64,000 bases of DNA from Bugula neritina (Eukaryota; Bryozoa; Gymnolaemata; Cheilostomatida; Bugulidae), in assembly GCA_964035545.1 (NCBI GenBank), contig OZ037766.1, forward strand, positions 848,501 to 912,500, read 5' to 3'. The position numbers were made by a program, and so were the translations under genes. Of this stretch, positions 3,008-56,400 are shown piece by piece; within the stretch, counting starts at the first letter, position 1, and each line of letters begins with the position of its first letter. The notes beneath the pieces are model-generated. The model had not been told where the DNA came from and did not search any database. It was given only the letters and a program-made list of their open reading frames with translations.

Positions 3008-6000
3008 ATGGCACATCCTGAGATATACGCCAACCGTGATGGAACTGAATCTATCTCTACTATGTGGGTGGAAGATAAGCGTCTGCTGTGTCGCAGGTTA
3101 GATGCGAAACACAGGTGGAAAGATTTGGGTGCGTAGTTTTCTTGAATTTTCTTCGTACATTTTTTATACGAAACCTGAAAAAAATGCTATAATTATTCGT
3201 GCTTATTGTTGAGCAAACACTTGAGTGCCTACAGTGAAGTGATCCCGTATTTACTGCATTCTGACCAGCTGAAGCGCCTATGGCCTCACCAGCTGACACT
3301 TCTAGTGGGGGCTCGACTCATCTCCCACCTGTGCAATTTCTTGATATTTCGTCTGTGATTAGTAGTCAGTGACTCATATTATATCAGATTAGTAATCAGT
3401 GAGTCATGTTATCCCGGCAGCCAGTCACCAAGACCTGCGTCTGACACAAGATGACGTGCTGCTACTGAGTCAAGCATCTCCGAGAGAGAGTCCATCTGAA
3501 GGTCTGTTCAACCGTATGACAGAGAAGAGGACGAACATGCTGGAGCTGTATGCGTACCTCCACCAGGCAGATCTGCTGGCTGTTATGAACATAGTCCAGA
3601 AATACAGTCAGTGTTTACATATTGATTGCGGTGTTGGGCTGTTTTAAGTAGTTCTATATACTATTGTAGTAACATCTCTGAGCAGAAGATGGTGGAGTTG
3701 ATGTATGCTAGTTATTGCATTGCATTGCTAGTTTTGCATTGTACATAAAACATATTATTTTAGTGTAGCGTTTATTTCTGTAAACAAATAACTGTATTCA
3801 CATGAAGTATTATATTATGGTGTAGTGTGATGTCATAGGAATGGAGTAGTGTGATGTCATAGGAATGGCGTAGTGTGATGTCATAGGAATGGCGTAGTGT
3901 GATGTCATAATAATGGCGTAGTGGGATGTCATAGGAATGGTGTAGTGTGATGTCATAGGAATGGCGTAGTGTGATGTCATAGGAAGGACATAATGACATA
4001 TCACAGGAAGTGTTTTTATAGCCTTCCATAGTTGTATGGTGTAGACTCTAGTAAGTAAATAGCCTGTGAGTCTATGTTACCATTAGGTAGTGTTTGTGGG
4101 ACATGTTCTTGTAGCCTCCTACTGTGTATACAGCTGTGAAAATGTGTGCTTGTATTTACAGTCCCACCTCATTATCATGTGTCTTCAGAGACTGATATGT
4201 TACATGACCCTTTGGGAGAGGGCAACTCCTTAGGTAAGTGTTTTCATGTGATATTTTAGCTTGTTGATTCCTAAGAGACACTCATTCAAATGACAGGATT
4301 GTATCTCCATTAGCCAGTCCTTAGAATTTCTTATTTCCTGCCAGGTGTATATCGTAAGCTAGCTTGTTATATATTACTTCCTTCAAAAAGAAATTTCTCC
4401 TAATAGCGTACGTTAACTAACTGATTACATCAAATATTCCATCATTGCATTTAAAAGCCAAGCAATATATGATAGGTACTTAGTAATAACCAATCAGAAC
4501 ACTTCTACCAGTTGAATAAATCATCATGAAATAATGACTTCATCCTTCAAGTATCTCTAGACACTCATTACGTTCACAAGTACCTCTATCTCACATGACT
4601 CATACATGTTCTGTCAGCGCCTCCTGTGCCAGCCCCGCCCCCTCCTCTCAGTCCGCTGCCGGCTGCCAACCAGAGTCCCATGAGTCTGCTGGCCCCTCAA
4701 GACCTCCACCAAGCTGGTTTACACAACAGTTTACCTGGTCTGTCTCTGGATGACGGCGGTATGTGTCACTATTACCTTGTACAGTGTGTCACCTTGTACA
4801 GTGTGTCACCTTGTACAGTGTGTCACCTTGTACTCTGTGTCACTATTACCTTGTACAGTGTGTCACTATTACCTTGTACAGTGTGTCACCTTGTACAGTG
4901 TGTCACCTTGTACTCTGTGTCACTATTACCTTGTACAGTGTGTCACCTTGTACTCTGTGTCACTATTACATTGTACAGTGTGTCACCTTGTATTGTGTGT
5001 CATCTTGTACAGTGTGTCACATTGTACAGTGTGTCACATTACCTTCTACAATGTGACACTATTACCCTGTACAGTGTGTCACCTTGTACTGTGTGTCATC
5101 TTGTACAGTGTGTCACCTTGTCTTGTGTGTCACCTTGTATCGTGTGTCACTATTACCTTGTACAGTGTGTCACTTTGTACTGTGTGTCAGATGTGACCTT
5201 GACCTAGTTGTGTAGGTCACAGCATACAGCAGGAACTGGACTCTATGCAGATCCGAGCCGCCCACACCATCATGGCCACCAGAAACTTTGACATAGCAGA
5301 CATCTTGAAAGCCACCAACAACTTTGACGAGCAATATATGATAGCGAAGGGTGCGTATAGCTCGGTCTACAAGGTGAACCTGATGAATACTGACTTCGCA
5401 GCTAAAGTTTACGTGAGTATTTCTATATGGTGTTTGGTATAGTGTATTATATAGTATGCAGTAAGGTAACTGTGTGTACACAATATCATACTTACCATCA
5501 CAGTAGCTATGAGTGTACACAATATCATACTTACCATCACAGTAGCTATGTGTGTACACAATACCATACTTACCATCACAGTAGCTATGTGTGTACACAA
5601 TACCATACTTACCATCACAGTAGCTGTGTCTGTACACAATATCATACTTACCATCACAGTAGCTATGTCTGTACACAATGTCATACTTACCATCACAGTG
5701 ACTGTGTGTGTACACAATATCATACTTACCATCACAGTGACTGTGTGTGTACACAATACCATAATTTTTGTAGGATTTGGACTACAACTCTGTAAAATCT
5801 GACCTTCAGGAAACGAGACTGTAAGTTACTAGGACTATATTAGTATACTGTTACTAGGACTATATTAGTATACTGTTACTAGGACTATATTAGTATAATG
5901 TTACTAGGACTATATTAGTATAATGTTACTAGGACTATATTAGTATACTGTTACTAGGACTATATTAGTATACTGTTACTAGGACTATATTAGTATACTG

Positions 6001-9000
6001 TTACTAGGACTATATTAGTATACTGTTACTAGGACTATATTAGTATAATGTTACTAGGACTATATTAGTATACTGTTACTAGGACTATATTAGTATACTG
6101 TTACTAGGACTATATTAGTATAATGTTACTAGGACTATATTAGTATACTGTTACTAGGACTATATTAGTATACTGTTACTAGGACTATATTAGTATACTG
6201 TTACTAGGACTATATTAGTATAATGTTACTAGGACTATATTAGTATAATGTTACTAGGACTATATTAGTATAATGTTACTAGGACTATATTAGTATTAGC
6301 ACTCAATACTAATGCATAGACAGGTTAGAATTTGTGTGCAGGATACGTATCAGTGGATATTACTCTGAAATTCCTCAAGTCTAATAATAGTAGCAGTTGC
6401 TTTGATTCCTGACTTCCTGATTGGTGGAGCTGTTGACCAATCAGATGCAGTAAACAAGCACATGGCCCAGGGGAATAGCTCTTCTTATTATCTTAACAAG
6501 TGAAACTTCATAGTATGTCCTGCCATCTGATTGGTTGGTTATTCCACTCCCTTATCTCTAGAGTTTTTCTCATAGAGTTTGTGACTGCTGCACCAGTTAA
6601 TATATTAACATATACTTGTGATATAACTGTACTTCTTGTTGTATATTGTTATTATCAGCTGTGCAACATGCACACTTCCTGTTATACTAACTACTACTAG
6701 TTTATGTTGGTGTCACTTCTTAGCCTAGGGCCACACTGTGCGTATTTTTGCATGCGAAAATTGAAATTACAAGTAGCAAAGGTGTCCACTGTAGCGTCAG
6801 TGATGCGTGATAAATAAAGCTTTCATTTTTAAATCGCACTCCCTTTCAATAAAAGGCAATTTACTGGAATATAGCACTTAAATGAAGAAATTGGGCTCGC
6901 TGAATAACTACCAGCCAATTAGGTGACGACGACAGAGACGATTCGCACTTGCGTTGAAAATGCAGAGCGACAAGTGCGAATGTTTTCTCAACGCGCACAG
7001 TGGACACCTTTGCTACTTGTGATTTCAATTTTCGCATGCGAAAATACGCGCCGTGTGGCCCTAGGCTTACTCTGTAGTCTTACATAATATTTTCTAGTGG
7101 CAATAGATTTGATACCAACAGGTTGAGTTTGTGTAGCATATACCTGTTTGGGTCAGCTGTGTTGTATTATGTCCTGTAAAACTGTTTCCTGTAGAACTAT
7201 TATCTGTAGAACTGTAAAACTGTTGACTGTAGAACTGTTGACTGTAGAACTGTTGACTGTAGAACTTTTTGACTTTAGAGCTGTAGACATGTAGAACTGT
7301 AAGCATGTTGAACTGTAGACATACGTAGTACTCGTACTAAAAGTCGCTACGAAATGAACTTCACGATTTTATTGGAATTTATAATCATTCAGTTAATTTA
7401 TTCAAACAGGAAAGTTTCAAGTGTTTCTTTTTGACAGGCAATGTTTGTGCACAGGAAGTGAAATTTACCATAAAGGTTTTTAGTAAAGCATATATATCAT
7501 ATCATAACAATATTGTATCATAATATATCCTAGTATCACATATTATCATATTTTAGCATATCATAGTTGTTTGATATATTCTATTATTACATGAGTAATA
7601 ATGCAGCACAGTTAATAGTTATCTTATCATAAGCTAGTTTTCCTGCCCGTTCATTTGCTACAACTCTACTCTACCATATCATATACTCTGTTGACAGTCA
7701 CACACAGGTGCTCTACCATATCATATACTACTCTGTTGACAGTCACACGCAGGTGCTCTACCATATCATATACTACTCTGTTGACAGTCACACACAGGTG
7801 CTCTACCTTATCATATACTACTCTGTTGACAGTCACACATAGGTGCTCTACCTTATCATATACTCTGTTGACAGTCACACACAGGTGCTCTACCATATCA
7901 TATACTACTCTGTTGACAGTCACATACAGGTGCTCTACCATATCATATACTCTGTTGACAGTCACATACAGGTGCTCTACCATATCATATACTCTGTTGA
8001 CAGTCACAATCATGAGAATGTAGTCTCCATCACTGGAAAGTGTCTGAATGGACCCAGTTTCATCATTCTCTACGAATTCATGACCAACCAGTCCCTCCGT
8101 CATCAACTGGACACCCAGGGAGTCCTTAACATGGACAGACGAGTCACAATACTCAGAGGTGAGCACGTAATACGGTATATATTAGAATATATATCTGTGT
8201 GAGTTAGATATAATACGGTATAGAATATACATCTGTGTGAGTTATATATAATACGGTATAAAATATACATATGTGTGAGTTAGATATAATACGGTATAAA
8301 ATATACATATGTGTGAGTTAGATATAATACGGTATAGAATATACATCTGTGTGAGTTATATATAATACGGTATAAAATATACATATGTGTGAGTTAGATA
8401 TAATACGGTATAGAATATACATCTGTGTGAGTTATATATAATACGGTATAGAATATACATATGTGTGAGTTAGGTGCTGTTTCCATTCATGCTGACTTAT
8501 TGTGTTTTCAGATGCTGCCAGAGGTATTCAGTACCTTCACAGCAACGTCCCCTCTCTACTCCACAGAAACATTAAAAGGTGAGACAGTGCACCCCTTAGT
8601 ACACTCCTTACTATGCCCCTTGCTACACTCCTTACTATGCCCCTTAGTTTACCCCTCACCATCTCATTTGACATCACTACTATGTGTATAGCAGTTCTAA
8701 AAGCTAATTTATTTGAGTTGGTTCTTCATGTAAGTCACATTCAAGTATTCAGTATGCAGCATGTAAAATGGAGAACACACAGAAGACTTCTGTTACATCC
8801 CTCATTCAGAACTCAAGTCTAAAGTTATAACATTCAGTGAATTACTGTGTGTTACATTAAGAGTTGTCTTATCAATGTGCCTATACGTCTGCACTCAGCT
8901 CCAACATCCTATTGGACGACGGGTTGAAGGCCAAACTGTCGGACTTTGGCATGGCTGTGCACGTCAGCAAGAAGTCTGATTCCAGTTCAGTGGAGAGCAG

Positions 9001-12000
9001 CTCGCAGTGTTACACCCACTTCTCCACCCTCAACGACACCTCGGCCCTGCAGCGGAGCAAGGGCTATTGCTCTAAGGAAGTGCTCAATGGCAAGTTTTCT
9101 GTGAAAACCGACACGTATGCATTTGGAGTGGTAAGTGGCTGGAATCTGCAGACGTTTCATTAGCAGACGTTACAGAAAGTGTTATCTGTAGATGTGGTAA
9201 AGTTGTGAAGAGCATTTGTTATAGCAACTACTCAGTCTCTGTGACAATATTTATGAACAAGAATATTAACTGTGTTGGGGTTATCTTCTCCTAACTTATA
9301 ATTTGCCTAAAGAGGTAATAACTCCTAACAATACTTACATAACTAATAAGTCAAAACCTGTTTAATTGTTAAACCAGAACATATTAAATGGTCAGTTGCC
9401 CTGAGTAAGCTTTGTAATCTCACTAACTGGAATATTCTATTTCGGGAGTTATCTCTCCTAAACATGTATTGCCTGTACACACAGCTAGTCATTGTGTAGT
9501 GCTGAAGAGAAAGTGAAGCTGCTGCACTGTGTAGTCTTTTCACTTTCCTAGTCTCTTTATTCTTCAGTTTATTTCAGTCTTTCATTTGGTAGATTGAAAC
9601 ATTAATTTTTTTAAGTTGCCCAGTAATTCGACATCCAGCATAATGTGACGTGACATAGTGTGACACGTTATGTCATGTGACGTGACATAGTGTGACACGT
9701 TATGTCATGTGATGTGACATAGTTGACACGTTATGTCTTGTGACGTGACATAGTGTGACACGTTATGTCTTGTGACGTGACATAATGGGACAGACTAGCG
9801 TGTATACAGACTCTAGCATAGTCTAACAGGTGAAGGACTACCTTTCAGGTAATCTACGAGACTCTGACTAGACTGAAGGCGTACGACTCCAGCCGTAGCC
9901 GTGACAACAGGGCACTGGTGGATTACATTGAGGGCGTGGCCAACGAGTCCAAAGATGTGTGGAACCTGAGAGACAAGACTATACGCTGGGAACAGAAGAC
10001 GTACTTTAAGCTGTTCCGTCTGGCAAAGCTGGCCACTGCAGACCGGCCCAAGTGTCGGCCCACCATGAAACAGGTGCGTTACTGCTACGGTACACCGTCT
10101 ACTGTATGTTACTGCTACGGTACACTGCCTACTGTATGTTACTGTTTAACACAGTGTAATACAGTGTAATACTGTGTAATACTGTGTAATACTGTGTAAT
10201 ACTGTGTAGTACTGTGTAATACTGTGTAATACTGTGTAATACAGTGTAATACAGTGTAATACTGTGTAATACTGTGTAATTCTGTGTAATACAGTGTAAT
10301 ACTGTGTAATACAGTGTAATACTGTGTAATACTGTGTAATACAGTGTAATACTGTGTAATACTGTGTAGTACTGTGTAATACTGTGTAATACAGTGTAAT
10401 ACTGTGTAATACTGTGTAATACAGTGTAATACTGTGTAATACTGTGTAATACTGTGTAATACTGTGTAGTACTGTGTAATACTGTGTAATACTGTGTAGT
10501 ACTGTGTAATACTGTGTAGTACTGTGTAATACAGTGTAATACTGTGTAATACTGTGTAATACAGTGTAATACTGTGTAATACAGTGTAATACTGTGTAGT
10601 ACTGTGTAATACTGTGTAGTACTGTGTAATACTGTGTAATACTGTGTAATACTGTGTAATACTGTGTAATACTGTGTAATACAGTGTAATACTGTGTAGT
10701 ACTGTGTAATACTGTGTAATACTGTGTAATACTGTGTAATACTGTGTAATACAGTGTAATACAGTGTAATACTGTGTAGTACTGTGTAATACTGTGTAAT
10801 ACTGTGTAATACTGTGTAATACAGTGTAATACTGTGTAATACAGTGTAATACTGTGTAATACAGTGTAGTACTGTGTAATACTGTGTAATACTGTGTAAT
10901 ACTGTGTAATACTGTGTAATACAGTGTAATACTGTGTAATACTGTGTAATACAGTGTAATACAGTGTAATACTGTGTAGTACTGTGTAATACAGTGTAAT
11001 ACTGTGTAATACTGTGTAGTACTGTGTAATACTGTGTAATACTGTGTAATACAGTGTAATACTGTGTAATACTGTGTAATACAGTGTAATACTGTGTAAT
11101 ACTGTGTAGTACTGTGTAATACTGTGTAATACAGTGTAATACTGTGTAATACTGTGTAATACAGTGTAATACTGTGTAATACTGTGTAATACTGTGTAAT
11201 ACTGTGTAGTACTGTGTAATACTGTGTAATACTGTGTAGTACTGTGTAATACTGTGTAATACTGTGTAATACAGTGTAATACTGTGTAATACTGTGTAGT
11301 ACTGTGTAATACAGTGTAATACTGTGTAATACTGTGTAATACAGTGTAATACTGTGTAATACAGTGTAATACTGTGTAGTACTGTGTAATACTGTGTAGT
11401 ACTGTGTAATACTGTGTAATACTGTGTAATACTGTGTAATACTGTGTAATACTGTGTAATACAGTGTAATACTGTGTAGTACTGTGTAATACTGTGTAAT
11501 ACTGTGTAATACTGTGTAATACAGTGTAATACTGTGTAATGCAGTGTAATACTGTGTAGTACTGTGTAATACTGTGTAATATTGTGTAATACTGTGTAAT
11601 ACTGTGTAATACTGTGTAATACTGTGTAATACAGTGTAATACAGTGTAATACTGTGTAGTACTGTGTAATACTGTGTAATACAGTGTAATACTGTGTAAT
11701 ACTGTGTAGTACTGTGTAATACTGTGTAATACTGTGTAATACAGTGTAATACTGTGTAATACTGTGTAATACAGTGTAATACTGTGTAATACTGTGTAGT
11801 ACTGTGTAATACTGTGTAATACAGTGTAATACTGTGTAATACAGTGTAATACAGTGTAATACTGTGTAATACTGTGTAATACTGTGTAATACTGTGTAAT
11901 ACTGTGTAATACTGTGTAATACTGTGTAATACAGTGTAATACTGTGTAGTACTGTGTAATACTGTGTAATACTGTGTAGTACTGTGTAATACTGTGTAAT

Positions 12001-14028
12001 ACAGTGTAATACTGTGTAATACTGTGTAATACAGTGTAATACTGTGTAATACTGTGTAATACAGTGTAATACTGTGTAATACTGTGTAATACTGTGTAAT
12101 ACTGTGTAATACTGTGTAATACTGTGTAATACAGTGTAATACAGTGTAATACAGTGTAATACTGCGTAATACTGCGTAATACTGCGTAATACTGCGTAAT
12201 ACTGCGTAATACTGCGTAATACTGTGTAATACAGTGTAATACAGTGTAATACTGTGTAATACTGTGTAATACTGTGTAATACTGTGTAATACTGTGTAAT
12301 ACTGTGTAATACAGTGTAATACTGTGTAATACTGTGTAATACTGTGTAATACTGTGTAATACTGTGTAATACTGTGTAATACTGTGTAATACAGTGTAAT
12401 ACTGTGTAATACTGTGTAATACAGTGTAATGCTGTGTAATACTGTGTAATACAGTGTAATACTGTGTAATACTGTGTAATACAGTGTAATACTGTGTAAT
12501 ACTGTGTAATACTGTGTAATACTGTGTAATACAGTGTAATACTGTGTAATACTGTGTAATACTGTGTAATACTGTGTAATACTGTGTAATACTGTGTAAT
12601 ACTGTGTAATACAGTGTAATACAGTGTAATACTGTGTAATACTGTGTAATACAGTGTAATGCTGTGTAATACTGTGTAATACAGTGTAATACTGTGTAAT
12701 ACAGTGTAATACTGTGTAATACTGTGTAATACTGTGTAATACTGTGTAGTACTGTGTAGTACTGTGTAATACTGTGTAATACAGTGTAATACTGCGTAAT
12801 ACTGCGTACTACTGCGTAATACTGCGTAATACTGCGTAATACTGCGTAATACTGTGTAGTACAGTGTAGTACAGTGTAATACTGTGTAATACTGTGTAAT
12901 ACTGCGTAATACTGCGTAATACTGCGTAATACTGCGTAATACTGCGTAATACAGTGTAATACTGTGTAATACTGTGTAATACTGTGTAATACTGTGTAGT
13001 ACTGTGTAATACTGTGTAGTACAGTGTAATACAGTGTAATACTGTGTAATACTGTGTAATACAGTGTAATACTGTGTAATACTGCGTAATACAGTGTAAT
13101 ACAGTGTAATACTGTGTAATACAGGTCTACAGTGACTTGGACGAGATCTACAAGAACATCCAATCAGATAAGTACGACAGCGAGTTTGACGAGGAAATGC
13201 AGCCGATGTCCTCGCTGTCCCCCATGCAGTCTGACTACGTCTCCGGCTTCTCCGCCACGCCTCCTGACCTTACTCACCACATGTCACTTCCTGTTGTCGG
13301 TCAAGGACATCACTATGGCAACCAGTCGGCCAATCAGCATCGGCTAGCTCCATTCATATCTCAGCAGAACAGTGCCACTAGCCCTGACTACTTGAACCTG
13401 CAGTATACCCAGTCTGATGCCCTCTACCCGCCTCCCGCCCTGCGCTATACACCAGTATACTCTCAGTCTATGCCAGTTGGCAATGTCGAGAGAGAGCTGA
13501 GTATTGGTGAGAGCTCATTGGGTCTGAGTAGCCTCGGTGACCGAACACAAAGTCTACCCGAGGAGGGGGGAGACACCCCGTCCCCTCACTGTGACGTTAC
13601 GAACTCAGATAAGAGGGCAGGAGAGCAGACGACTTCAAGTGACGCCTGCACAAAGGTGAGGGAAGATAGTGCTGCGTGTGACACATGAGTCACGTACTGA
13701 CACCAGCAGCTGCCAGCTAGTCTACTGATTTTACTGAATAAACAATTGAATATCTGCTACTTTAGATTATATATTCGACGGTTTGTTTCAGGCTGCTCTA
13801 TCCGAGTCACTTGAGAATGAGTCATCCCTGCTAGGCGCACAACCGCTGCCAGACGCAGAGGCAGCAGTGTCTGCTGACAGCATGGACAGCTGTGACCTGC
13901 AGGTCTATCTGGATAAGGCAGCTCAGCGAATTCAACTCATGAACGGAGAGGAGAGTGAGGACGACAGCGAACTTGACCCTGACCTTGTGGCCGAGTTGGC
14001 CGGCTTAGATCTGGAGACACCTTCCTGA
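3008..14028 (+). CDS. IRAK: IRAK/Pelle-family death-domain protein with catalytically impaired kinase domain, 12 exons
   Basis: Exons: 3008-3128, 3421-3606, 4162-4233, 4618-4758, 5216-5412, 5774-5820, 8004-8158, 8512-8578, 8899-9130, 9849-10073, 13125-13655, 13792-14028. All junctions keep phase; product 736 aa. Exon 1 is short but carries the first half of the death domain (LLCRRLDAKHRWKDLA); exon 2 supplies the rest (LFNRMTEKRTNMLELYAYL). A Pro-rich linker follows to about 175, then the kinase-like domain from about 190 (NFDIADILKATNNFDE, as in IRAK4) to about 480. Lys237 (FAAKVY) and the DFG motif (Asp344) are present. The catalytic loop reads HRN (Asn326) instead of HRD, the Gly loop is degenerate (GAYSSV), and APE is replaced by SKE. 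The activation segment is long and Ser-rich. The tail, 482-736, is Ser/Pro-rich then acidic, with PEEGGD at 626-631. IRAK2 and IRAK3 are known relatives lacking the same Asp. Likely a Toll/IL-1R scaffold; residual activity cannot be excluded. Confidence 0.9.
3820..3988. repeat. 24-bp minisatellite, about 7 copies, in IRAK intron 2
   Basis: Unit GTAGTGTGATGTCATAGGAA plus four bases, head to tail with few substitutions. The period is a multiple of three, so it produces repetitive open frames that are not genes. Confidence 0.9.
4759..5190. repeat. 17/23-bp minisatellite starting at an IRAK 5' splice site
   Basis: Two interleaved unit lengths: GTGTGTCACCTTGTACA (17) and the same with a CTATTA insertion (23). 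The first unit begins at the donor GTATGTGTCAC of the exon ending at 4758 and the array fills nearly the whole intron to 26 nt before the next acceptor. Confidence 0.92.
5474..5765. repeat. 39-bp minisatellite, about 7.5 copies
   Basis: Unit starts GTGTACACAATATCATACTT, continues ACCATCACAGTAGCTAT. It ends about 10 nt before the acceptor of the 5774 exon. Each copy carries ACTTACC, the complement of a GGTAAGT donor. A 39-nt period gives open frames on both strands. Confidence 0.93.
5824..6297. repeat. 25-bp minisatellite, about 19 copies, starting at a 5' splice site
   Basis: Unit GTTACTAGGACTATATTAGT plus ATACT. The array begins four bases into the intron: the donor itself reads GTAAGTTACTAGG, merging into the first copy. 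Copies differ mainly by ATACT versus ATAAT. Confidence 0.94.
6723..7066. mobile_element. MITE with about 70-bp terminal inverted repeats and TTA target duplication
   Basis: The left end GCCTAGGGCCACACTGTGCG and the complement of the right end GCCTAGGGCCACACGGCGCG begin inverted arms that stay almost identical for about 70 bp, through GCATGCGAAAATTGAAAT and AAGTAGCAAAGGTGTCCACT. TTA flanks both ends (6720-6722 and 7067-7069). Total 344 bp, no coding capacity. A 3-bp TWA duplication is typical of the PIF/Harbinger superfamily, so this is probably a non-autonomous Harbinger-type element in IRAK intron 6. Confidence 0.85.
7160..7325. repeat. 15-bp imperfect repeat (CTGTAGAACTGTTGA)
   Basis: About ten degenerate head-to-tail copies, best preserved at 7200-7270, just downstream of the MITE. 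Confidence 0.75.
7670..8010. repeat. 42/45-bp minisatellite containing eight copies of an IRAK 3' splice site
   Basis: The unit runs CTCTACCATATCATATA(CTA)CT then CTGTTGACAGTCACACACAGG. The eighth copy of CTGTTGACAG|TCACA is the acceptor actually needed for the exon at 8004, and the first exon bases are repeat-derived. The reading frame and the HENVV kinase motif fix this acceptor. Confidence 0.93.
8159..8475. repeat. 38-bp minisatellite, about 8 copies, starting at a 5' splice site
   Basis: Unit GTGAGTTAGATATAATACGG continuing TATAGAATATACATCTGT. The first, diverged copy begins exactly at the donor GTGAGC of the exon ending at 8158, so every copy opens with a donor-like GTGAG. The array ends about 36 nt before the next exon. 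Confidence 0.92.
9650..9790. repeat. 32-bp minisatellite, about 4 copies
   Basis: Unit GTGACGTGACATAGTGTGAC then ACGTTATGTCAT. It lies about 60 nt upstream of the acceptor for the exon at 9849. Confidence 0.85.
10148..13124. repeat. 10-bp satellite-like array, nearly 300 copies, filling an IRAK intron
   Basis: Unit TAATACTGTG with variants TAATACAGTG, TAGTACTGTG and TAATACTGCG. It has essentially no indels over about 3 kb and ends with TAATACAG, which is the acceptor of the exon at 13125. The intron begins at 10074 with two copies of a 30-bp unit before the 10-bp array. The 1005-codon open frame on the minus strand (ITQYYTVLHS repeats) results from the 30-nt translation period and is not a gene. 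Confidence 0.97.
13557..13574 (+). other. Candidate TRAF6-binding motif PEEGGD in the IRAK tail
   Basis: Residues 626-631 read PEEGGD, matching the known TRAF6 consensus P-x-E-x-x-(acidic/aromatic). It lies in the disordered Ser/Pro/acidic tail, the same relative place as TRAF6 motifs in IRAK1. The match is short, so functional assignment is inference. Confidence 0.45.
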
Positions 14029-16061: not shown

Positions 16062-19000
16062 ATGGCGGCTGGTGTGGTGTCCACGGTAACACACGCTGTA
16101 TTATGTTGTGTAGCTCTCTCATCTCTAGTCTCATCCCAAGGCTCACGTACGTTCTTTTCTAACTCAGCGTCATATTAGATACATATGTCACATGACATGT
16201 TGTGTACATCAATACTGTTGTCATTAGATTACATGTATACAGTGTTTATTAAAGATGCTAAACAATATCTTTTGTGTATTTATGAGTTTGTTATAATTAC
16301 TGGATGCTGTAGTGTAGTGTAGTTTAATTAAGATAGGCAAATAGAATGTCTATTGTCATGATATAGTTTAATATAATATAGCAATCTAATATATTACAGT
16401 TATATATTATGAGATGATACAATAATATAGTACAATATATTATAATACAATCAAGTAATATAGTACAAAACAATATAATATAAAATTACTGTATATTATT
16501 TTGCAGAAGGCTCTGGTATATCATTTAGTCCTGCCTGCCCAGAATCTAACGCTCCTGGAGACCATGACATCAGAGGTATCATTTTTATTTAGTATTATAT
16601 AATATTATATATGTAATATTATATAATACTATAGTAATATATATTAAGATATAATATATATCATGTAATATTATCTATGCCATCATGTATATCATGTAAT
16701 ATTATCTACACTATAATATATATCATGTAAAATTATATTGAAGTATAGTATATATGATATAATAAGATATTTAGATAATACATATGATATAATAATATAC
16801 TTGAGAGTAACTCAAGGTGAACACCATAAAGCTATGAATAGCTCTCAGCTTAGTAAAGAAAAGCTGATGTGTAAACTACAAAATATCTGCTCTCAGCTGA
16901 AACATTTTCCAGATAAAATAACTTTCTTCTATGGTTTAAACTTTCATTATTCAATTTCACCTGGCATTAATTTTATCATTATGAGTTGGTAATATATATT
17001 TGTTATTATTTTATTTCACTAGGAACTGATTTGTTATTTTAGTAAATAAATTTAGACAATGAATCCTGATGTTGAAGAAGTTTCTTTTAGATGAATTTTG
17101 TAAATAACTCAGTTGAAAGTTTTGGCCAAATTTTGTAGCCTACGATTTCATATCACTATATGGGTTGGACGCGATAGAGCATATGCCCCAACCTGGCGTG
17201 GAACTAATAGATGGATCTAACTCTCTACAGAAAGCTTATAGACTCACAAAGAAAGACAATATACTCGCTGCAACCAGGTAATACATACGTCTGCTGTATA
17301 CAGGTAATATATACGTCTGCTATATACAGGTAATATATACGTCTGCTATATACAGGTAATATATACATCTTCAGATGGAAAGTAATGTGAAATAGTATAA
17401 TACCAAGTACTATAACTTTGTGTAATATATGGTATCATAAAATAGTGTAATACGTAGTAATATAATACAGCATAATATACTGTACTGTTATATAATGCAG
17501 TATAATATAATATAAAACAGTATAATAAAACGTATAGTAATTTCTTCTTCACTGCCATATCAACATAAATAAGTTTACATATTATAACAGCTTGTTCATC
17601 ATGGTTATGTTATGTTTATTTTAAAATAAGTCAAACTTTTCACTTTTTCTCGAGGTTTGAGCTGCTCTCTTGAGACTCATGGTGCAAGGTGCCAGCAAAG
17701 CTGCAGTCTAACAATAATTATATAAAGCATTGTGTTCTGAAGCAAATTACCAGCTCTCGTTAGTTTGTAATACGAAGGCATGCACTTCCAATAGGAATCA
17801 GATGTGCCAACACAAAAGCTTGCCTTACATTTATTATTCTCACTGCAAACAATTAAGGCAGAGCCTTAAAAATTTCCTTCACTAATTTTTGCTTAGCATG
17901 TCTCTAGGGTTGGCTTACTGAAAGCCTGTCTGGGAGTATCAGTTTACATCAGACAATGGGGGTGGTACTTCTAGTTACATAGACTTGATCAACTCATTAG
18001 CCTCAGTATCTTATATCATCCTTAATACTAAACTGTGGGTGTCTCCCCACCTCCCCCTAATAGATGTCATGTTAACTTGTTGGTACAATAACCTCAGCTG
18101 GCTGGATTTTGCGTGTACTTCTTAACTTCTCTCACAGATACAACCTTTAGTTTGTTATTCGCTGTAATATTTTCTAGAGAGGAAGTTACAAGTATAAAAT
18201 TTGTTTGATGAAATACGATTAAAAATCATAAATAGTTCATCTAATTGTAAAATGCAAGTGGTTATTCATTTTCTAATTTTAAATTTTTTTTATGATATTT
18301 TTCATTTTACTTGTACAGTATCACTAGTTAAATTTGAGGTGTTTCAATAAATTTACTGGTTCAACTTTTTGGATGCCACTGACACTTTAATATAACACCA
18401 TATAATAGAGATGTTTATGTTAGCAGATAAAAAAAATATGATATCATATTGTATTATAACACGTAAAATACTCCACAAAATATATCATAAAATAAGAATG
18501 TGACAAAGTATTATACGAATGTATTATGAAAGATTAAATGTTATTCATTTATTTTTGCTTTCATTTATTTATCATCTACACCTGTTGAAAGTTATACCTA
18601 ATATTCACATCTGTTGACAATACCTATTATTCACATCTGTTGACAATACCTATTATTCACATCTGTTGACAGTACCTATTATTCACACCTGTTGACAGTA
18701 CCTATTATTCACATTTGTTGACAAGACCTATTATTCACATCTGTTGACAGTACCTATTATTCACATCTGTTGACATTACCTATCATTCACTGCATCTGTT
18801 GACAGTACCTATTATTCACGGCATTTGTTGACAGTACCAATTATTCACATCTGTTGACAGCACCTACTATTCACATCTGTTGACAGCACCTACTATTCAC
18901 ATCTGTTGACAGCACCTATTATTCACATCTGTTGACAGCACCGTACTCCCACATGGTCTACCGAATGAGTTTAGTTTTGGCGCTACTCTGCGAATGCCCA

Positions 19001-34602: not shown

Positions 34603-34668
34603 ATAATCAGACAATAGTAACTGCAATACCTTAAATTTTAATGTAAATTACCGAATAATAGAAAGTTG

Positions 34669-34674
34669 AATAAA
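34669..34674 (+). terminator. Poly(A) signal AATAAA of the COL9A1-like gene
   Basis: AATAAA 67 nt after the TAA stop at 34600-34602, inside GTTGAATAAAGGTTTT. Confidence 0.7.
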
Positions 34675-37201: not shown

Positions 37202-37448
37202 TATTCACTGCGGTGCTACTATCTTCTTTCTGGCTACATGGTCTGAAACAAACCAATAAACGTTATTTCTTTCTATTTTTCCAAGAAATTAAATCGACCG
37301 CATAATAAGCTATAAACTGAATGATGAAAGACATTACTTCATTGATGAAAATGATAAAATATTAAAACCAAATAAAAATATAAAATTTATAATAACCAAC
37401 TACGAAAACAAACTGAAGTTACCAAGCCTGGGAGCTAGTGGCTAGTAG

Positions 37449-45700: not shown

Positions 45701-48700
45701 CTAAATAAAGCTCCTAGTATCTTCTGATTCACAACCTTGGTCTCATCATTGTTGGATGGACAGGTTTGTTTTTCCATCATGTGATGATAAGCAGTTTTAA
45801 GAAACTTGGGAAAGTGTTTACTTGAGACCTTCTAGATAGAAGTGGGCAAATTAGCCTTAGTTCCCAGAGGCGTGTTTTCAACAATGTGCGATGGTGTCAA
45901 CAGATTTGAAAAGTTGAAATGCTTTACACTCCCTCCAAGAAAAATTTATCAGAGCTGGTCATGTGTAAGGTGCACCTTGAAGGAGTAGTAGTTAATTTTT
46001 CTTGAGCAATTCTACTCACTTGAGCAATGTTTAGCTAGTTTAGCCACAAATATAATTCTTAACTCAAACATCAAGGGTGGGTACCATTTCCCTCTTCACT
46101 TGAATAGTTTCCTAAAACAATTTGAGTTGCCATAACCTTAAGTAAGTGTGAAGTTATCACCAAGGAGGGATACAACACTGCAACTTCAATTTATTAAAAC
46201 CTATCAAAATGATCTTCCTGTAGTATTCTATATCTGCTATATTAGTGGTAAAGTTTACTTCCTGTAGCATTTTATATCTGCTATGTTAGTGGTAAAGTTA
46301 ACTTCCTGTAGTACTTTATATCTGCTATATTAACGGCAAAGTTAACTTCCTGTAGTATTTTATATCTGCTATGTTAGTGGTAAAGTTAACTTCCTGTAGT
46401 ACTTTATGTCTGTTTAAAAGGGAGCGGAATTTGGTATTTAACTTGGCTAGCGATAGTTTTCAAAATACCTGTGGTTTTGTTTTATTATGTCTTTAGTCAG
46501 AACTGTGTTGGTAGTTTAATTTGTTATGATATTTTCAAGTTAGCCCAGTCAGGAGTATATAGTAAACATGTGGGGTTATTTATGTCTGTTTTAACAAGCT
46601 TTAATTACCTATAATGTACACAATTTACATTCCAAATGTAAGGTAATATATACACACACAGTGACGTAATGTAAACGCTATTTCTTTTCGATGTAATAGC
46701 GTTGTTGGTGTATAATATTATCTAACGCGACCTCCGTGTAACCTCAAAACGTACTCGTTGTTCTAACAGCTGATAGAGGCAGTGACATGGCTAATCCATT
46801 TGATAAACAGCTCCGATTTTAACTACAGTTGTTGGATGAAATCACCAGCATGTTAGTATAACCCAGTACCTATTCTGATACACGATAGGTTTATTACTAC
46901 AGGGAATTGATATGATGATGACTATGAGCTAGCATGTGAATATAATTGTTAAGGGCCTGATATCACCATTTCTTATCTCACTGTCCACTTGTTTTCTCAT
47001 TTACTTAATCACTCCATGAACTTTTGAACGCCTCCTGTTCAATTAAAAGAAATCCAATGAAAGATATAGAAATATTTACTTTGCAATGAGCCACAGCGCT
47101 TTATTGCCGACTTTAAAAACATGTTTATCAAAATATGTACACAATCTACCCACAATCCTCCGTAGCTTATCGCCTGCTGTTATTTTGAATACCTTAACCA
47201 CGTGTTAGGATTGAGCAAGCACTGACAGGGATGTGTCATTTAGCTAGTGCCTCATCTGCTAATGAGACGTGTTTTAATATTGGTACCCAGTACCTAGTAG
47301 AAGGTAGGCCGTGTTCAGGGCGTGGACACAATACTGTTATTTTCAAACTCATATTTCTTACGCTCCATTAGCTGCACGAATGTTAACCTAGGTCAAGCAT
47401 GCAATTACATAATGCTTATCATTGTACTCCATTCCATGTGTTCTTAAGCAAAACCTATTCCCTGCTACGCAGGCTGATTAAAAATCAATGATATACGTAA
47501 CTGCCTGCATTGTGATTGTTCCTACCAGTTACTCCCAGCGTTATTTTGGTATAGTTTAGCTCTCTCTATATCTCACAGTCTAACTCTCTCTTAGTCTAAC
47601 TCTTTCTCAGTACAACTCTCTCTATCGTAGTCTAACTGCCTGCAGGTGAAGACAACCCTGTATCAGAGTCAGTGGATATCAAAGTGAGCAACCAACCCTC
47701 CCGTATGACAGCGAGTCTGAGCATGGAATACTCCCGGCACATGGATATGGTTGCCGACAGGAAGCCGATACTGCCTCCATACTCTATGAGTGCCGGAGGA
47801 ATGCTGCCTGGTGGGTTCCAAGGTCTGCCCCACCTTCACGACCAGTCTAATCGTATGTTCCTGTCGTCATACGCTGCCGCAGCACATAGAGGTATGTATT
47901 GCTGTCTGTGTGTTTGGCTGTCTGTGTGTCTGTTAGTGTAGTGTAGGAGTAACGGTGTGACAGTCATGGTCACGAGGGAACAGTACTGTAGGTCTACAAA
48001 CAATGGACGCCATTTCCTGTCCCATCTGATGCACGTGTGAACGATATGCCACCTGCAGTTTTGTGGTAGACTGAGCATGCCCAGTGAGTCATATGCTGGG
48101 ACTGAGCATGCCCAGTGAGTCATATGCTGGGGGTGGCAGGACCAAGCTGGACGCTGTCCAGTGCGTGATTGTCCAGTCATTCTACCGCAGTGTGTGTGCC
48201 TGTAGCCAGCACATGGTGGCTGCAGTATGATCTACTTTCTGCATAATTTGTTGTATTTTGTTGACATTTACCATGAGACTAGGAATAAATTGTATTCCCT
48301 GAGAGACTGAGGTCCACATAGCTCTAGTGAGGGTGCCTCTACCTCCTCCCATACTTCTGTTTATATTTATTACATAACAGCTGGATTTGTTGTAAACAAA
48401 CTCATCAACATCAAAGTTCAAGCTGAATGGTTCCATACCCAGACTAGTGTTTATTTATATTATGTGTTATGTGTTGTGTGCAGCTACTGGATAATGGAAA
48501 TTGACAATTAATAGAGAAACTGAATTCCCTGGCCGTAGCCCCAAGCACTATGCATATTTCTACTCTGTAATAACGTAACACTTTGAATAGCAGCTTATTG
48601 ATTGGTTTGTATTCACTTCACAGACTAACTGATAGCTGTAACTCTCTCCTCCTTGTTTATCATATCAACTTACTGAATATATTATTCTTACGTGTAATTA

Positions 48701-49292
48701 GTCTTGTTTATTATTTATTTACTCGTTATTTGTTATTATTTTATACTCGTGGCTTATGCTAGGAATCTACATTTTATTCACACATAAAAAGGAAATTAGA
48801 GCTGATATGGTAGAGTTGTACTGTTACAGTTTGTTAATGCTGTGAGTGTTGCACGTTTTATACATTGTATAGCAATAACACAATATTACATTGTGTTATT
48901 GTCTACTCGTGGAATAATACAACTACACGCCTGAGAGATACCAACTACGTTCAAATTTCACTGAAATTCGCACGTTTCTACTGTTTCACTGCCACTGCAC
49001 TCTTCTATTTGTATTCTGTGCATTCATTTCCTAACTTATTTCCCTGCAGGTAGAAAAGTTTAGTCTGTTGTTTCTAAGTTAGTAATGTGAATACGCTGTT
49101 TCAGGAGCCCTTCCCTACGACTTTCACGGTCATATGAACCCAGGTAATCTCAACCCTGCACCAGCTAAGAGCCCCTCTCCCCCTCCCCGCGTCTACAAGC
49201 CCTGCGTGGTGTGTAATGACAAGTCCTCAGGCTATCACTATGGAGTGAGCTCCTGCGAAGGCTGCAAGGTGGGTTGGTACACAGTCTATGTT

Positions 49293-49382
<90 letters not shown>

Positions 49383-50420
49383 GACTGTAGAAGTTTACTC
49401 AAACTCTAAATCTATTGATTCTATTCCCAGTTGACAAGAACCTATGTTTTGGTGTTTCTCCAGAGTAGAAACTTATACAATATATTTCAATGACCTTAAT
49501 GGGGCAGCATTTGAGGTGACAGAGGCAGCGTGTAGTGGCAGAGGCAGCACGGGTAGAGATGGTGGGAGAATAATGTATTCAGTGTTGCTACTGCAACTTT
49601 CCACCCACCTGAGGTTTCATATCTCACTAGTCATTCCATTAATAATAACATTGCGCAACAATTAAGCCCAGCTCCACTGTACGTAGCATCTGCAGGCCTG
49701 TAACGGCTGGAAGTGGAATTAATAGCTTCTGTTCTGATTATCTGGCTGTTGGAGCCTCAGCTAACCTCTGCAGTTGTGTGCAGACTAGGAGATGGTGTTG
49801 TTAGTGTTGTTACAGTTAATCTATCAGGATTTGTGTACTGCAGTTGGTTAACTGGAGGATTATTAAGCCTCTTGTTGGTTAAAAAGTACTTTGTTAGCTT
49901 ATTTACTGCTGCATTGTTGTGTGGAGAATCTCATTGTTAATAAGCAGCCACCTAAATGGTGTCCATCTTCTCAGTACGCTCTGTATGGGAAGGTAAGGTT
50001 GTGGAACAGCCTTAAGTAAACACTAAACCATCAAACTGAGGTTTGTTTTTGTTGGGAGGGAAAATGCTGCCACTTTCCTTACTCAGCCACCGCAGCAGCT
50101 GAACAATGAAAATATGGGCCATAGAATGTAACATTTGTAAGTCAACACTTGACTGCAGCCTTTCACGGTTCAAGTACCACTCTGTATTCATAATCCAACT
50201 TCTTGTTTTTCTTCTGTTCTCCGTATATAATATAATATATTTGCTTGTTTATGATAAATTGCTAGCTGCTTGGATTCACACAACATCCTTTCATGTGACT
50301 ATGTTGTGACTACAGCTAGTACTAGTACTACTACTAGTACTACTACTACTACTACTACTACTAGTACTACTACTACTACCGCTACTACCACTACTGCTAC
50401 TACTGCTACTACCACTACTG

Positions 50421-50453
<33 letters not shown>

Positions 50454-53400
50454 TTACTACTGCTACTACTACTGCTACTACCACTACTGCTACTACCACT
50501 GCTACTACTGCTACTACTGCTACTACCACTACTGCTACTACTACTACTACTAGTACTACTACTACTACTACTAGTACTACTTGTACTACTACTAGTAATG
50601 CTACTACTACTACTACTACTAGTACTACTACTACTATTACTACCACTGCTACTACTATTACTACTACTAGTACTACTACTACTAGTACTCCTACTACTAG
50701 TGCTACTACTACTAGTAGTACTGCTACTACTGGTACTATTTTATTCCGTCCTAAAGACTGATTATGTGGCTAAACCAGACCAAACCTGGGGCTGGTTTAT
50801 TATTTTAATTACTTTATAATAGTATTACTTTTCTTAAGTGGCCTCCTTCTCAGAGCACTTATAATTCTCATTAATCTCTCTGTCTCTCTGTCTCAAGGTC
50901 ATTGTCTCACCTCTCTTTACCTAGTAACTCTCCTTGTCTCACCTAGTAACTCTCCTTGTCTCACCTAGTAACTCTCCTTGTCTCACCTAGTAACTCTCCT
51001 TGTCTCACCTAGTAACTCTCCTTGTCTCACCTAGTAACTCTCCTTGTCTCACCTAGTAACTCTCCTTGTCTCACCTAGTAACTCTCCTTGTCTCACCTAG
51101 TAACTCTCCTTGTCTCACCTAGTAACTCTCCTTGTCTCACCTGGTAACTCTCCTTGTCTCACCTGGTAACTCTCCTTGTCTCACCTAGTAACTCTCCTTG
51201 TCTCACCTAGTAACTCTCCTTGTCTCACCTAGTAACTCTCCTTGTCTCACCTAGTAACTCTCCTTGTCTCACCTAGTAACTCTCCTTGTCTCACCTAGTA
51301 ACTCTCCTTGTCTCACCTAGTAACTCTCCTTGTCTCACCTAGTAACTCTCCTTGTCTCACCTAGTAACTCTCCTTGTCTCACCTAGTAACTCTCCTTGTC
51401 TCACCTAGTAACTCTCCTTGTCTCACCTAGTAACTCTCCTTGTCTCACCTAGTAACTCTCCTTGTCTCACCTAGTAACTCTCCTTGTCTCACCTAGTAAC
51501 TCTCCTTGTCTCACCTAGTAACTCTCCTTGTCTCACCTAGTAACTCTCCTTGTCTCACCTAGTAACTCTCCTTGTCTCACCTGGTAACTCTCCTTGTCTC
51601 ACCTGGTAACTCTCCTTGTCTCACCTGGTAACTCTCCTTGTCTCACCTAGTAACTCTCCTTGTCTCACCTAGTAACTCTCCTTGTCTCACCTAGTAACTC
51701 TCCTTGTCTCACCTAGTAACTCTCCTTGTCTCACCTAGTAACTCTCCTTGTCTCACCTAGTAACTCTCCTTGTCTCACCTAGTAACTCTCCTTGTCTCAC
51801 CTAGTAACTCCTTGTCTCACTAAACTCCAGAGTAAAGGGCTGGTATGTATACCTGTCACCTACCTGCTGGTATGTATACCTGTCGCCTACCTGGTGGTAT
51901 GTATACCTGTTCAGAGTTGTGTTCTCTCTCACTGCAGGGGTTCTTCAGACGAAGTGTGAACAAGAACATGACGTACACGTGTCAGAAAGACTCCAACTGT
52001 GAGATCAACAAGGTGACGAGGAACAGGTGCCAACACTGTCGTCTCAAGAAGTGCTTCGACAAGGGCATGTCCAAAGAAGGTGCGTGTGCTTCCCCCCCCC
52101 TTCCCCCCTACAGCCTTCTTCAGACTCTCGGGCTACTGCCTGCTGAATAGAACTCTGGGTCTACAGACCAGTAAAGTGTCTCTATTACTAGACTGTTGAA
52201 TGTAGGCCAGAGTATTAGAATTGTTGTGATTTTTAATGTTCCATATTTTCACCGCACAGCAGCACCTCCATTCTCTGTCATGTGGCAGCAGCCAGCAGGC
52301 TAGATATGCTCTGCAGGTATTTCCATCCTTTGTTAGGTTTCTATTGACTCTGTATGAACACTAAAATAGACTGCACTGGCAACCTGCCAACACTCATCAA
52401 CCCGACATCCGGTTTAACAGAAAGTGTAATAATACGAGCAGCAGGGAACTGTTTGTCAAACGAAATGTCAAAGCCAAGGGGTGCTGTTTACATTTGCTGT
52501 CAGTTGAAAGGTCAACACTCGCTGGCTTGCTGACTTTACTGCTGCATGCTGACTGTTTCCAGGCTTCACATATGAATAGATTTCTTATTCAATGTCTGGA
52601 ACAGTTACTAATATCCACAGCCATAAGTTATCCACTTGAAATAATTGATACACAGTGATAGAGTTTATCTGGAGGTGTTTGCGTCTTCAATATAGACCAA
52701 CTTTATGTAGATGTTTGCCTTTCAGCTTCTCTCATCCCCTGATTAGTTATTCTCCCTCAGTGTGTTGAGTCTCTCTCTCCTGTTGTAGCCGTCAGGAATG
52801 ACAGAAAGAAGAAGCCGCCTGTCGCTGACGCTGAAAAAGAAGACAACAACAACAAGAAGGCGGAGCCAGCAACTTTCCTCACCGAGCGAGACGAACACCT
52901 CATAGGAATCATATTAGATGCGCACAGACAGACACTGCCCGGCGGACCCGTTCTGCCTAAAAAGGTAGCTGGAGATTCTAGTCTACCACAATATCCCACA
53001 ATACCCCACAATATCCCACGGGTGGTATGGGTTGGGGACAGATGTACTCTAGTGAATGTTGTAAACACATGTTTACTGGCAATTAGCAAGTGACTGCAAC
53101 TCGTGTTGTTTTTGATCTTACAGCCTGAGGGCTTTGGCTTCACTTCAGTTAACTTACAGCTTCACTTCAGCTAACTTACACATGTTTTGAAGTTGATTCA
53201 GCAATGATAACTTGTTGTGTCATCTCCAAGAAGTAAGTTGGTTAATGAGCCTTTAACTCTTCATTAGTGGCCAATAGAAAGGTTTCAGCATGAAATAACT
53301 TTAGTTACTGAATCATATTCATTAGAAATAAAAATATTGGAAAAGCAAATCCAAACAATTTGTACTGAAAGCAATATTTAGATACTGGTTTAAGAGTTTT

Positions 53401-56400
53401 TGGAATACATTGGCTATTGTTCCAGCAATGAAACTGTGAGGGTAGCTGGTATTAGATAGTGTATTTTACTCCAACATTTCAATATTCGCAGCTTTTAGTT
53501 CTTTACAACCAGACAAGTATTTCAACTAGACCACCATGTAGCAGTAGTAAGACATCTTTGCTTGTGGAGGTAGTAAAGAAGTTCAGCCCTTCATTGTTAT
53601 CTATTATTAGTCACTCTTCTAACGGAGTGAACAGTTGAATTAGTGAGTCGTGTTACCAACTTCACGGCTCATTTGAGTTGTGGAATTGCGCTTGGGGACA
53701 TTTTAGTGCAGAGTTAAATTTCCTCATGTTACTCGTGGCCCAGAAATTGTTTGCATCTGAGATGGGAGGAGCTTAAACTCCCTCTTCAAATATCCTTGTC
53801 AGAGTGTGGGGATAATTCTATAAGCAGCTCTAAGTTGGGGGTGACTGAGTGCAGTAGTTTGGGGGTTCCAATCAAACATTGTATGTATTTTACCTTTCTG
53901 TTATTTTGTACCCGGCTCTACCTCTCTCTAGTTGTGTATCTCATGTGTATCGTGTATAACTATCCTCTCTCATGTGTCGCAGGTGAACGACTGCCCTAGT
54001 CGCAGCCCCTCCGTGTCATCCCCAGTGCCAAGCACCTGCTCAAACATGACAGGCGAGTCATCTGACAGACCGAGTCCCGACACAACCACTCTGGACAGTA
54101 TGGGGGGTCTGCATAGCCCCTCGACCCCCGGCAGCAACTATGGGTCACCATCTCGGCGGCCTGGCTGGGACAACGTGGATGAACTCAACTCGGAGGGGAT
54201 AGTCAAGGTGGTGGAGTTTGCCAAGAAGATACCACGATTTCTAGAGCTCAGTGTAACTGATCAGATAACTCTGCTGAAGGCAGCGTGTCTAGAGGTCTTG
54301 GTAGGTAGATCTTGTTATCTCTCCTCGTGTCACTGAATACTGTGGGTGTGGCTTTAGACCAGGACTAGTTTCCTGTCCGCTCCAGTGTCCACTGAGCTGA
54401 TTGGTTACTTGTTGAATGAAGATGTCTAGTCATTCTATTTTCATAGGATTTGTACATTGATTATTTCCTGTATTCAGCTCATTCAATACGACTCAAAATT
54501 ACTTCATTTTTCTCATGAAATTGCAGATTCTACGGTTGAGTATGAGATACAAAGCTGCCGAAGATATGCTCACCTTCTCCAATGGTGTCAGCATTTCTCA
54601 GGTGGAGATGGAGAAGGGAGGGTTCGGGGCTCTGGCGCAGACCATATTCAAGTTCTCCGCCGCTCTTTCTCAGATGAACCTTGATGAGAAGGAGTTTGCG
54701 TTACTCTCGTCCATCTGTCTGCTTTCTAGCGGTGAGTATGTCTGCTATACAGTCAGTATACTTCTGCTATACAGTTAGTATACAACTGCTATACAGTTAC
54801 TATACGTCTGCTATACAGTAAGTATACGTCTGCTATACAGTTAGTATACGTCTGCTATACAGTTAGTATACGTCTGCTATACAGTCAGTATACTTCTGCT
54901 ATACAGTTAGCATACGTCTGCTATACGGTTAGTATACGTCTGCTATACGGTTAGTATACGTCTGCTATACGGTCAGTATACGTCTGCTATACAGTTACTA
55001 TACGTCTGCTATACAGTCAGTATACGTCTGCTATACAGTTACTATACGTCTGCTATACAGTCAGTATACGTCTGCTATACAGTTAGCATACGTCTGCTAT
55101 ACGGTTAGTATACGTCTGCTATACGGTTAGTATACGTCTGCTATACGGTTAGTATACGTCTGCTATACGGTTAGTATACTTCTGCTATACAGTTAGTATA
55201 CTTCTGCTATACAGTTAGTAGACGTCTGCTATACGGTCAGTATACGTCTGCTATACGGTTAGTATACGTCTGCTATACAGTTAGTATACGTCTGCTATAC
55301 AGTTAGTATACGTCTGCTATACAGTTAGTATACGTCTGCTATACAGTTAGTATACGTCTGCTATACAGTTAGTATACGTCTGCTATACAGTTAGTATACG
55401 TCTGCTATACAGTCAGTATACGTCTGCTATACAGTCACTATACGTCTGCTATACAGTCAGTATACGTCTGCTATACACGTCTGCACATCAAACACATTCT
55501 CTAAAGCCATACATCAAATAGCTGATTGTTAAGCTGATGTGCAATGTTTAAGTTGCCAATGAAGTCTCACTTGATATTGACACGTGTCATACTGTAGCCC
55601 AACTCCCTCACCCACCTTGTTCTAGACAGCTGTGTGTGAGAGTGAAATTCTAGTATGCTATATGAGTGAAGGTTGGTGGAGTTGCCAGGTTTAGACGCTG
55701 TGACTGGAACTGTAGCTGTGATTGTAGACCGATCTGGGTTAGAGAGTAGCGTGAACGTGGAGAGAGTGCAAGAGCCGTACCTGGTGGCGTTGCAGCACTA
55801 CACCCGACACCGCCACCCTAACAAACCGCACCTCTTTGCTAAGTTACTCATGAAACTGACAGACCTACGGAGTATCAGTATTAAAGGTGAGTGTTGCAGG
55901 TTATCTCCCCTTCATGTGTGCTTTATTGTCAGAGGTTAGGTTCTCCACTCTAGGTAGATGGCGTTATGAGTGTCTTAGACACAAATAGGATTATTTTAGT
56001 GTTTTGGAGTTTTTGCAAGGATTTCCTCCTTGTATAAATGAACTGGCAAATTTTGAGGACATTTCTATTGCACTAAGCTATGTGATGACAAGTTTTCATG
56101 GATGATTGTCAGATAATGATGGCCGTGCATACTTCACTGGCTGGCACATGCTTTAACAACTGCAATTATTAATCCTTGTATGTCATTTTTTGTGTTTTTC
56201 ATACCTTAAAGCATACAATCCTCTCTTGATAATTGAAAGATTATTCCTTTTGTTATTGCAATAGTGTTGTCATTTGTTTTGTAATGCAGATCAGGGTTTA
56301 TCCAGAAATTTTGTCTGTGCCTTCGTAAAACATAAATATACCTGGATTGCAAAGTTGTCTTCCCCATGTATCAGATCTGCTGTATGTCGCGTGATGTTTA

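Follow-up and report, generated by a model that had tools for sequence, protein, structure and literature searches.

Minisatellite arrays anchored at splice donors in introns of the bryozoan Bugula neritina, probably of the amphioxus 'mirage' kind

Tandem repeats across exon-intron boundaries have been described in amphioxus, where the 'mirages' of Adh3 and the globin genes are minisatellite-like tandem duplications with AG/GT in many, not all, copies and a variable unit (10-72 bp in Adh3); regular splicing is suggested to be undisturbed (PMC3087553). Here we report tandem arrays that lie at splice sites of the bryozoan Bugula neritina. They were found in a stretch of 64,000 nucleotides (GenBank assembly GCA_964035545.1, contig OZ037766.1; bases 848,501-912,500 of contig 2 in the searched genome of 295 contigs and 215.85 Mb), hereafter the window, and in an independent sample of genes of the same genome. 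These arrays are probably splice-anchored minisatellites of the mirage kind, in which duplication of a segment straddling the donor would be tolerated as long as the exon-proximal copy works.

As in amphioxus, the bryozoan units span the exon-intron boundary (at nine of 22 junctions compared). Mirages concern a handful of cephalochordate genes and both 5' and 3' boundaries (PMC3087553), whereas the present arrays come from a bryozoan, where they were seen in more than a dozen genes; their starts are measurably in excess at donors, and the excess at acceptors is weak or absent outside the window. At 3' boundaries the arrays comprise two acceptor cases (8003 and 18938); outside the window there is no overall excess, and a weak one in one stratum only. 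The donor preference is not measured in the portions of the mirage literature examined. In the intron gain of potato RdRp, a tandem duplication likewise takes in splice signals or spans an intron-exon boundary, but a new intron results, whereas the duplications seen here seem only to lengthen an existing one (PMC4974935). Intron sliding and tandem duplication in Drosophila involve adjacent splice signals, some of them duplicated, that could shift introns; those are single shifts or duplications, and ours are arrays of dozens of copies, with no shift among the findings (PMC2891723). Human duplicated genes have repeats at exon-intron boundaries and cryptic splice sites as well, but these are recent paralogues with copy-number change of repeats within exons (PMC2812944). 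A limited search of the literature on bryozoan genomes, introns, boundary repeats and intron gain found no report of splice-anchored arrays in bryozoans.

The window contains an IRAK-like kinase gene (best chain IRAK1, 6bfn, E 6.9e-34), a collagen gene whose N-terminal domain resembles that of collagen IX (2uur, E 1e-29) and a retinoic acid receptor (RAR) gene (match 5uan, E 1.3e-85). The collagen and RAR introns sit within conserved domains, and the alignments to collagen IX (2uur) and RAR (5uan) are gapless across the junctions 17277|18939 and 54731|55728, respectively, so that the exon ends there are independent of the repeat. The exon ends of the IRAK kinase are backed by 6bfn, less exactly than these two junctions. 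Pfam gave no family for the collagen N-terminal domain, and NCBIfam none for the four peptides submitted.

The original prediction was that eight arrays in these genes start or end exactly at splice sites and repeat them. All eight were detected at or next to those sites with Tandem Repeats Finder (TRF; Table 1), but not all of them repeat the splice site. Five of the sites, donors 8159, 17278 and 54732 plus acceptors 8003 and 18938, are in register with a repeat that carries the splice signal. At 17278, CAG|GTAATA is present in three further copies, and the repeat match extends 11 bases into the exon (8/11 identical). The donor at 54732 is GTGAGTAT and the array copies are mostly GTTAGTAT or GTCAGTAT, in register about every 22 bp, with GT retained in 33/33 later copies; the GTGAG at 8159 recurs at 8199 and then each 38 bp as far as 8465. 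The array at acceptor 8003 has eight occurrences of TTGACAG|TCACA; that at 18938 has TTGACA 13 times, in nine cases as TTGACAG, with TACC or CACC next in most. Inclusion of the donor failed at two sites, namely 4759, where the array starts 3 bp into the intron and GT is repeated in 0/22 copies, and 5821. At 13124 the last copy does resemble an acceptor, but the case is weak, most of the 10-bp units having TACTG (224) rather than TACAG (69).

Table 1. Tandem arrays at splice sites of the window and further loci of a shared 14-mer
Feature	Coordinates	Strand	Details
Donor-anchored array, collagen gene	17275..17386	+	unit CAG|GTAATATATACGTCTGCTATATA, 26 bp; donor 17278; TRF
Donor-anchored array, RAR gene	54732..55477	+	22-bp unit, ~34 copies; TRF
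Donor-anchored array, IRAK-like gene	8159..8473	+	GTGAG repeats; TRF start 8183
Acceptor-ending array, IRAK-like gene	7669..8008	+	TTGACAG|TCACA; acceptor 8003
Acceptor-ending array, collagen gene	18595..18942	+	TTGACAG|CACC; acceptor 18938
Array, IRAK-like intron 4759-5215	4762..5189	+	fills most of intron; abuts donor, GT unrepeated
25-bp array	5825..6296	+	starts 4 bp past donor 5821; donor unrepeated
10-bp array, ~298 copies	10140..13122	+	nearly fills intron 10074-13124; last copy would be acceptor TACAG
Further ATACGTCTGCTATA loci	C1:8884504, C5:14813993, C5:17298188, C6:14495177, C6:15458511, C6:15885844		

The independent sample consisted of loci found via the kinesin, tyrosine phosphatase and myosin families, regardless of arrays. 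Exons were predicted with a gene finder written for this analysis and trained on 75 sequences, some overlapping and the window included (303,079 bases). Six loci judged to be ciliate (L009, L010, L012, L013, L039, L040) and eighteen selected for their arrays (L001-L008, L089-L098) were dropped before counting, together with exons of <30 bp as junction support, duplicate junctions from overlapping loci, and TRF rows with a period <7 or a score <80; four phosphatase paralogues (L061-L064) were left out of the position, word-recurrence, strand, leave-one-out and relocation tests. The final set comprised 331 donors and 324 acceptors, 57 and 56 of these in the window, with arrays covering 12.1% of intron bases and 1.7% of exon bases.

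Array starts were compared with a null model in which each array is placed uniformly within its intron (p from 20,000 simulated placements, uncorrected for five thresholds and four strata). By this test, the expectation that arrays are non-randomly placed within introns was borne out for starts at donors: 14 of 73 lay within 5 bp of a donor (5.2 expected, p 0.0001), and 10 of 54 with the window excluded (3.6 expected, p 0.0006). Introns with at least 300 bp free, in which geometry cannot force an array edge to the intron end, had 5/40 starts within 5 bp of the donor against 0.4 expected (4/30 against 0.3 without the window, p 0.0001) and 13 within 40 bp against 2.5. In the window alone, 5 of 19 starts were within 10 bp of a donor (2.4 expected, p 0.028). 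The donor excess of the loci chosen regardless of arrays persisted on leaving out any one of six of them.

The donor itself is repeated in ten of the 16 arrays that start within 10 bp of it (L016, L059 651, L060, L075 twice, L084, L087 twice, window 17278 and 54732), and two further donor-repeating arrays (L059 1640 and window 8159) were missed by the 10-bp rule. About 12 sampled arrays thus have donor copies in register, equivalent to about 4% of the 331 donors, and uphold the idea of a real site that is just one of many copies; the sample being small and non-random, any genome-wide figure would be a guess. Exon bases also proved to be part of the repeat. A stretch of 7 to 25 of them (73 to 100% identical) lies within it at nine of 22 junctions compared (L059 1640, L060, L075 290, L090, L091, L092, L093, L098 and window 17278), the longest being 25 bases in L090, one of the fetched arrays treated below, and 19 bases at L075 290. 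Other arrays start exactly at the first intron base, for example L059 651 and L075 1478, the latter with 44 copies. A donor-anchored array is common to the phosphatase paralogues L060, L062, L063 and L064.

Donor strength was scored for the 23 junctions given, of which 13 were counted, five were tied as two-copy fragments, two were out of register and three had no copy; one of the counted arrays (L059 651) is partly out of register. The junction donor outscored the mean of its copies in 10 of the 13 arrays and was weaker in three, in several cases owing its advantage to exon-side bases (for example AAG versus CTA at L075 1478). It looks as if the original donor had been kept and the copies had decayed, and replacement of the original site by a repeat-borne copy, the other possibility raised originally, is unsupported by these scores. 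Donor scores in anchored arrays leaned towards the sense strand (mean 3.4 vs 1.5, p 0.065, 16 arrays), and no such lean was found in the other 67 arrays (p 0.52). GT was kept in every copy of several arrays (43/43, 33/33, 19/19).

Donor-like repeats were also counted genome-wide. Three copies of the donor word GGTAAGTA at 14-44 bp spacing gave 579 + 618 = 1,197 matches, and the pattern read backwards 6 + 16 = 22. The 100 matches listed, all on chromosome 1, fell by eye into at least 17 arrays, with units of 14 to 36 bp that have little in common but the donor word. Among control words of the same dinucleotides, GGTAGTAA gave 291 matches (seven arrays on chromosome 1) and GTAGGTAA, which itself has a donor-like AG|GTAA, 587 matches, with at least 11 chromosome 1 arrays among those listed, one of them shared with a donor array; the word GGTGAGTA gave 686 matches against 19 backwards, in three arrays on chromosome 1. 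Counted in arrays on chromosome 1, the donor word exceeds its same-dinucleotide controls about 1.5- to 2.4-fold, a modest margin, and the minisatellites of this genome favour GTA-rich words generally. We rejected the word counts as stand-alone proof of donor nucleation: with words of equal composition also frequent, such counts alone are weak.

For the first ten of the 17 listed GGTAAGTA arrays, 290 bp at the 5' edge were fetched and the frames read by eye. An open frame ends at the first donor copy in eight of them, with strong frames of at least 56 codons in L090, L091, L094 and L098, weaker ones of 18 to 27 codons in L089, L092 and L095, and 32 codons in L093; nothing clear was seen at the array 5' edge of L096 and L097. 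The L094 exon matched the Pfam winged helix of eIF2D (7.3e-7) and the L093 frame OATP (8.6e-6, just under the Pfam cut-off); for five of the seven exons submitted, Pfam gave no convincing match. L089 may be immunoglobulin-like and L092 fasciclin-like. The gene finder placed the exon end exactly in three of the ten fragments (L090, L091, L098), the rest being read by eye.

The acceptor side of the effect is weak rather than nil. Array ends lay within 5 bp of an acceptor in 6 of 70 cases (4.3 expected) and in 3 of 49 with the window excluded (2.2 expected). Outside the window, introns with at least 150 bp free had 3/39 such ends against 0.6 (p 0.018) and those with at least 300 bp free 0/30 against 0.3; within 10 bp, the numbers were 4/49 against 4.1 overall, 4/39 against 1.0 (p 0.019) with at least 150 bp free, and 1 against 0.5 with at least 300 bp free. 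The window alone had 6 of 21 ends within 10 bp of an acceptor (3.0 expected, p 0.010); three of the six rely on doubtful predicted exon ends (7884, 48139, 51830), and the array at acceptor 8003 entered the count via a wrong predicted exon end. The case for arrays that end at acceptors therefore stays weak, with two window examples and a slight excess in introns with at least 150 bp free, and no overall excess outside the window. The acceptor-anchored arrays of the IRAK-like and collagen genes have CTGTTGACAG in common, and CATCTGTTGA is carried by an array in a kinesin intron (L071) that ends 9 bp before the acceptor.

The observed position and register of the arrays, the exon bases within their units and the excess at donors would all follow if a short segment straddling the donor, made up of the first intron bases and anything from 0 to 25 exon bases, were duplicated in tandem and then expanded into the intron. 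Such a duplication would be tolerated: splicing at the exon-proximal copy would join the same exon base as before, so that the correct junction would be kept, and everything beyond it would be intron, the later copies being spliced out. Growth on the exon side would alter the protein; with that side fixed by coding, the arrays would grow into the intron. The units would homogenise and drift, so that the exon part of the unit would fade, often becoming unlike the exon, while the donor stays recognisable. In this account we infer the order of events, the copy that is spliced and neutrality, and the donor excess may stem from either more frequent seeding or better survival of arrays at donors.

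Several observations weigh against this account. The numbers are small, with 14 of 73 arrays within 5 bp of a donor, and come from several thresholds and strata without correction. Six of the 16 arrays that start no more than 10 bp from a donor do not repeat it (L038, L079, L087 1474, window 4759, 5821 and 10074), among them two of the five donor cases of the window (4759 and 5821). The exon ends of the sample are predictions of a finder trained on the same loci and were checked by homology for some only. Finally, a 15-base word taken at the donor recurs (at least 12/15 identical, in the next 130 bp) at only 8 of 258 donors. The rate is 13 to 16% for intron words that are random or resemble donors, 22 to 27% for intronic GT words and 2.6% for exon words. 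As donor words recur less than intronic words, donors are not the main site of arrays and most arrays are unrelated to them; most intronic arrays are ordinary.

One alternative is that ordinary intronic minisatellites simply grow up to the constrained exon and splice sequence, with array edges falling at splice sites in short introns by geometry. This would fit the arrays at 4759, 5821 and 10074, the gradual rise of array coverage from 5.2% in the first five bases past the donor to a plateau of 12 to 13% beyond 40 bp (coverage before acceptors starts at 2.3% and climbs more slowly), and the near-expected number of starts within 10 bp of the donor in introns with <150 bp free (9/19 against 6.7, p 0.14). 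The same short introns nevertheless have an excess within 5 bp (9 against 4.4, p 0.005), the donor excess remains at 300 bp free or more, where acceptors outside the window have none within 5 bp and one within 10 bp, and growth up to an exon does not place exon bases inside the unit; we consider this explanation unlikely for the arrays as a whole. It is a somewhat better, though still doubtful, possibility that the active 5' splice site itself raises tandem duplication, through transcription-coupled breakage, R-loops, U1 occupancy or a nucleosome edge. The concentration at donors with little at acceptors outside the window, and the 17 listed arrays sharing little but the donor word, agree with such nucleation, as does the rarity of the acceptor word TTTGCAGG, which in three copies gave only 29 matches (0 backwards) in five arrays by eye, although acceptor words are less uniform and the comparison is not like-for-like. 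Against it stand the frequency of the same-dinucleotide control words, the few arrays of GGTGAGTA on chromosome 1 and the acceptor excess among introns outside the window that have 150 bp or more free; better survival would yield the same pattern. The wider claim that active 5' splice sites are hot spots of tandem duplication in this lineage, seeding arrays at perhaps several per cent of donors (which would make thousands genome-wide were the small sample typical), and supply spare donors for shifts of exon ends is rather improbable in our judgement.

The complete retention of GT in several arrays might indicate that selection keeps the extra donors as additional binding sites for U1, by which the transcript would be protected or its splicing strengthened. 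Homogenisation would also be expected to retain GT, most scored arrays have a junction donor stronger than the mean of its copies, and unanchored arrays have no sense bias for donors, which makes such selection very unlikely. About as remote is the insertion of a dispersed, donor-carrying repeat of the introner type into several introns. One 14-mer, ATACGTCTGCTATA, is common to the arrays at 17278 and 54732 although these belong to different genes (window 17278-17370 and 54740-55477); it occurs at eight loci among 100 of 101 matches listed, seven of them tandem arrays with periods of about 22 to 32 bp. An introner would be expected in many near-identical copies across genes; the 17 listed donor arrays have units of differing length and sequence, conserved domains surround the RAR and collagen introns, and A[AG]GT is found 3 to 6 bases before the 14-mer core only at 17278, a weak test that the donor-anchored array at 54732 also fails. 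Least credible of all is a gene-model artefact in which predicted exon ends are pulled to donors within arrays, a concern raised by a finder trained on the loci it predicts. Arrays were relocated at random within introns, no closer than 20 bp to either end, and of 977 such tests in 16 runs only one had a predicted donor within 5 bp of the array start. The finder is thus not drawn to arrays, and the junctions checked agree with profile or structure alignments: in L075, one kinesin match ends at 287 (profile 145), with the predicted donor at 290, and another at 1480 (profile 290), with the predicted donor at 1478, the match after it starting at profile 283, so that profile 290 lies at the first base of the predicted exon (2403); in L084 a match ends at 1757, which is the donor; and in L059 the phosphatase match ends at 1644, with the donor at 1640.

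Boundary-spanning arrays in over a dozen bryozoan genes, together with an annotated chromosome-level assembly, bring three questions within reach: whether tandem duplication is promoted by splice donors, by what means the spliceosome selects one of dozens of similar donors, and whether exon ends shift or introns arise through such arrays. An assembly of the alternate haplotype (GCA_964035465.1) exists as well. Spare donors beside exons may mislead gene annotation.

Further repeats were seen in the window. An intron of the IRAK-like gene contains an inverted repeat (6722-7067; 71-nt arms, 94% complementary, 204 nt apart) that looks like a non-autonomous DNA transposon. Upstream of an RAR exon lie a long imperfect CTA array (50309-50738) and a 22-bp array of 41 copies (50919-51820), which ends about 10 bp or less from a predicted exon that may be spurious. 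Elsewhere in the assembly, tyrosine phosphatase domains are clustered at C6:8.02-8.43 Mb, C1:3.97-4.23 Mb and in parts of C3 and C5, which suggests local expansion. Many small contigs (among them C10, C52, C90, C114, C115, C183, C189, C210 and C213) match myosin, phosphatase or kinesin in reading frames that hold several TAA and TAG codons and, in the contigs named, no TGA, as in ciliates; judging by this codon usage, a ciliate seems to have been co-assembled with the bryozoan.

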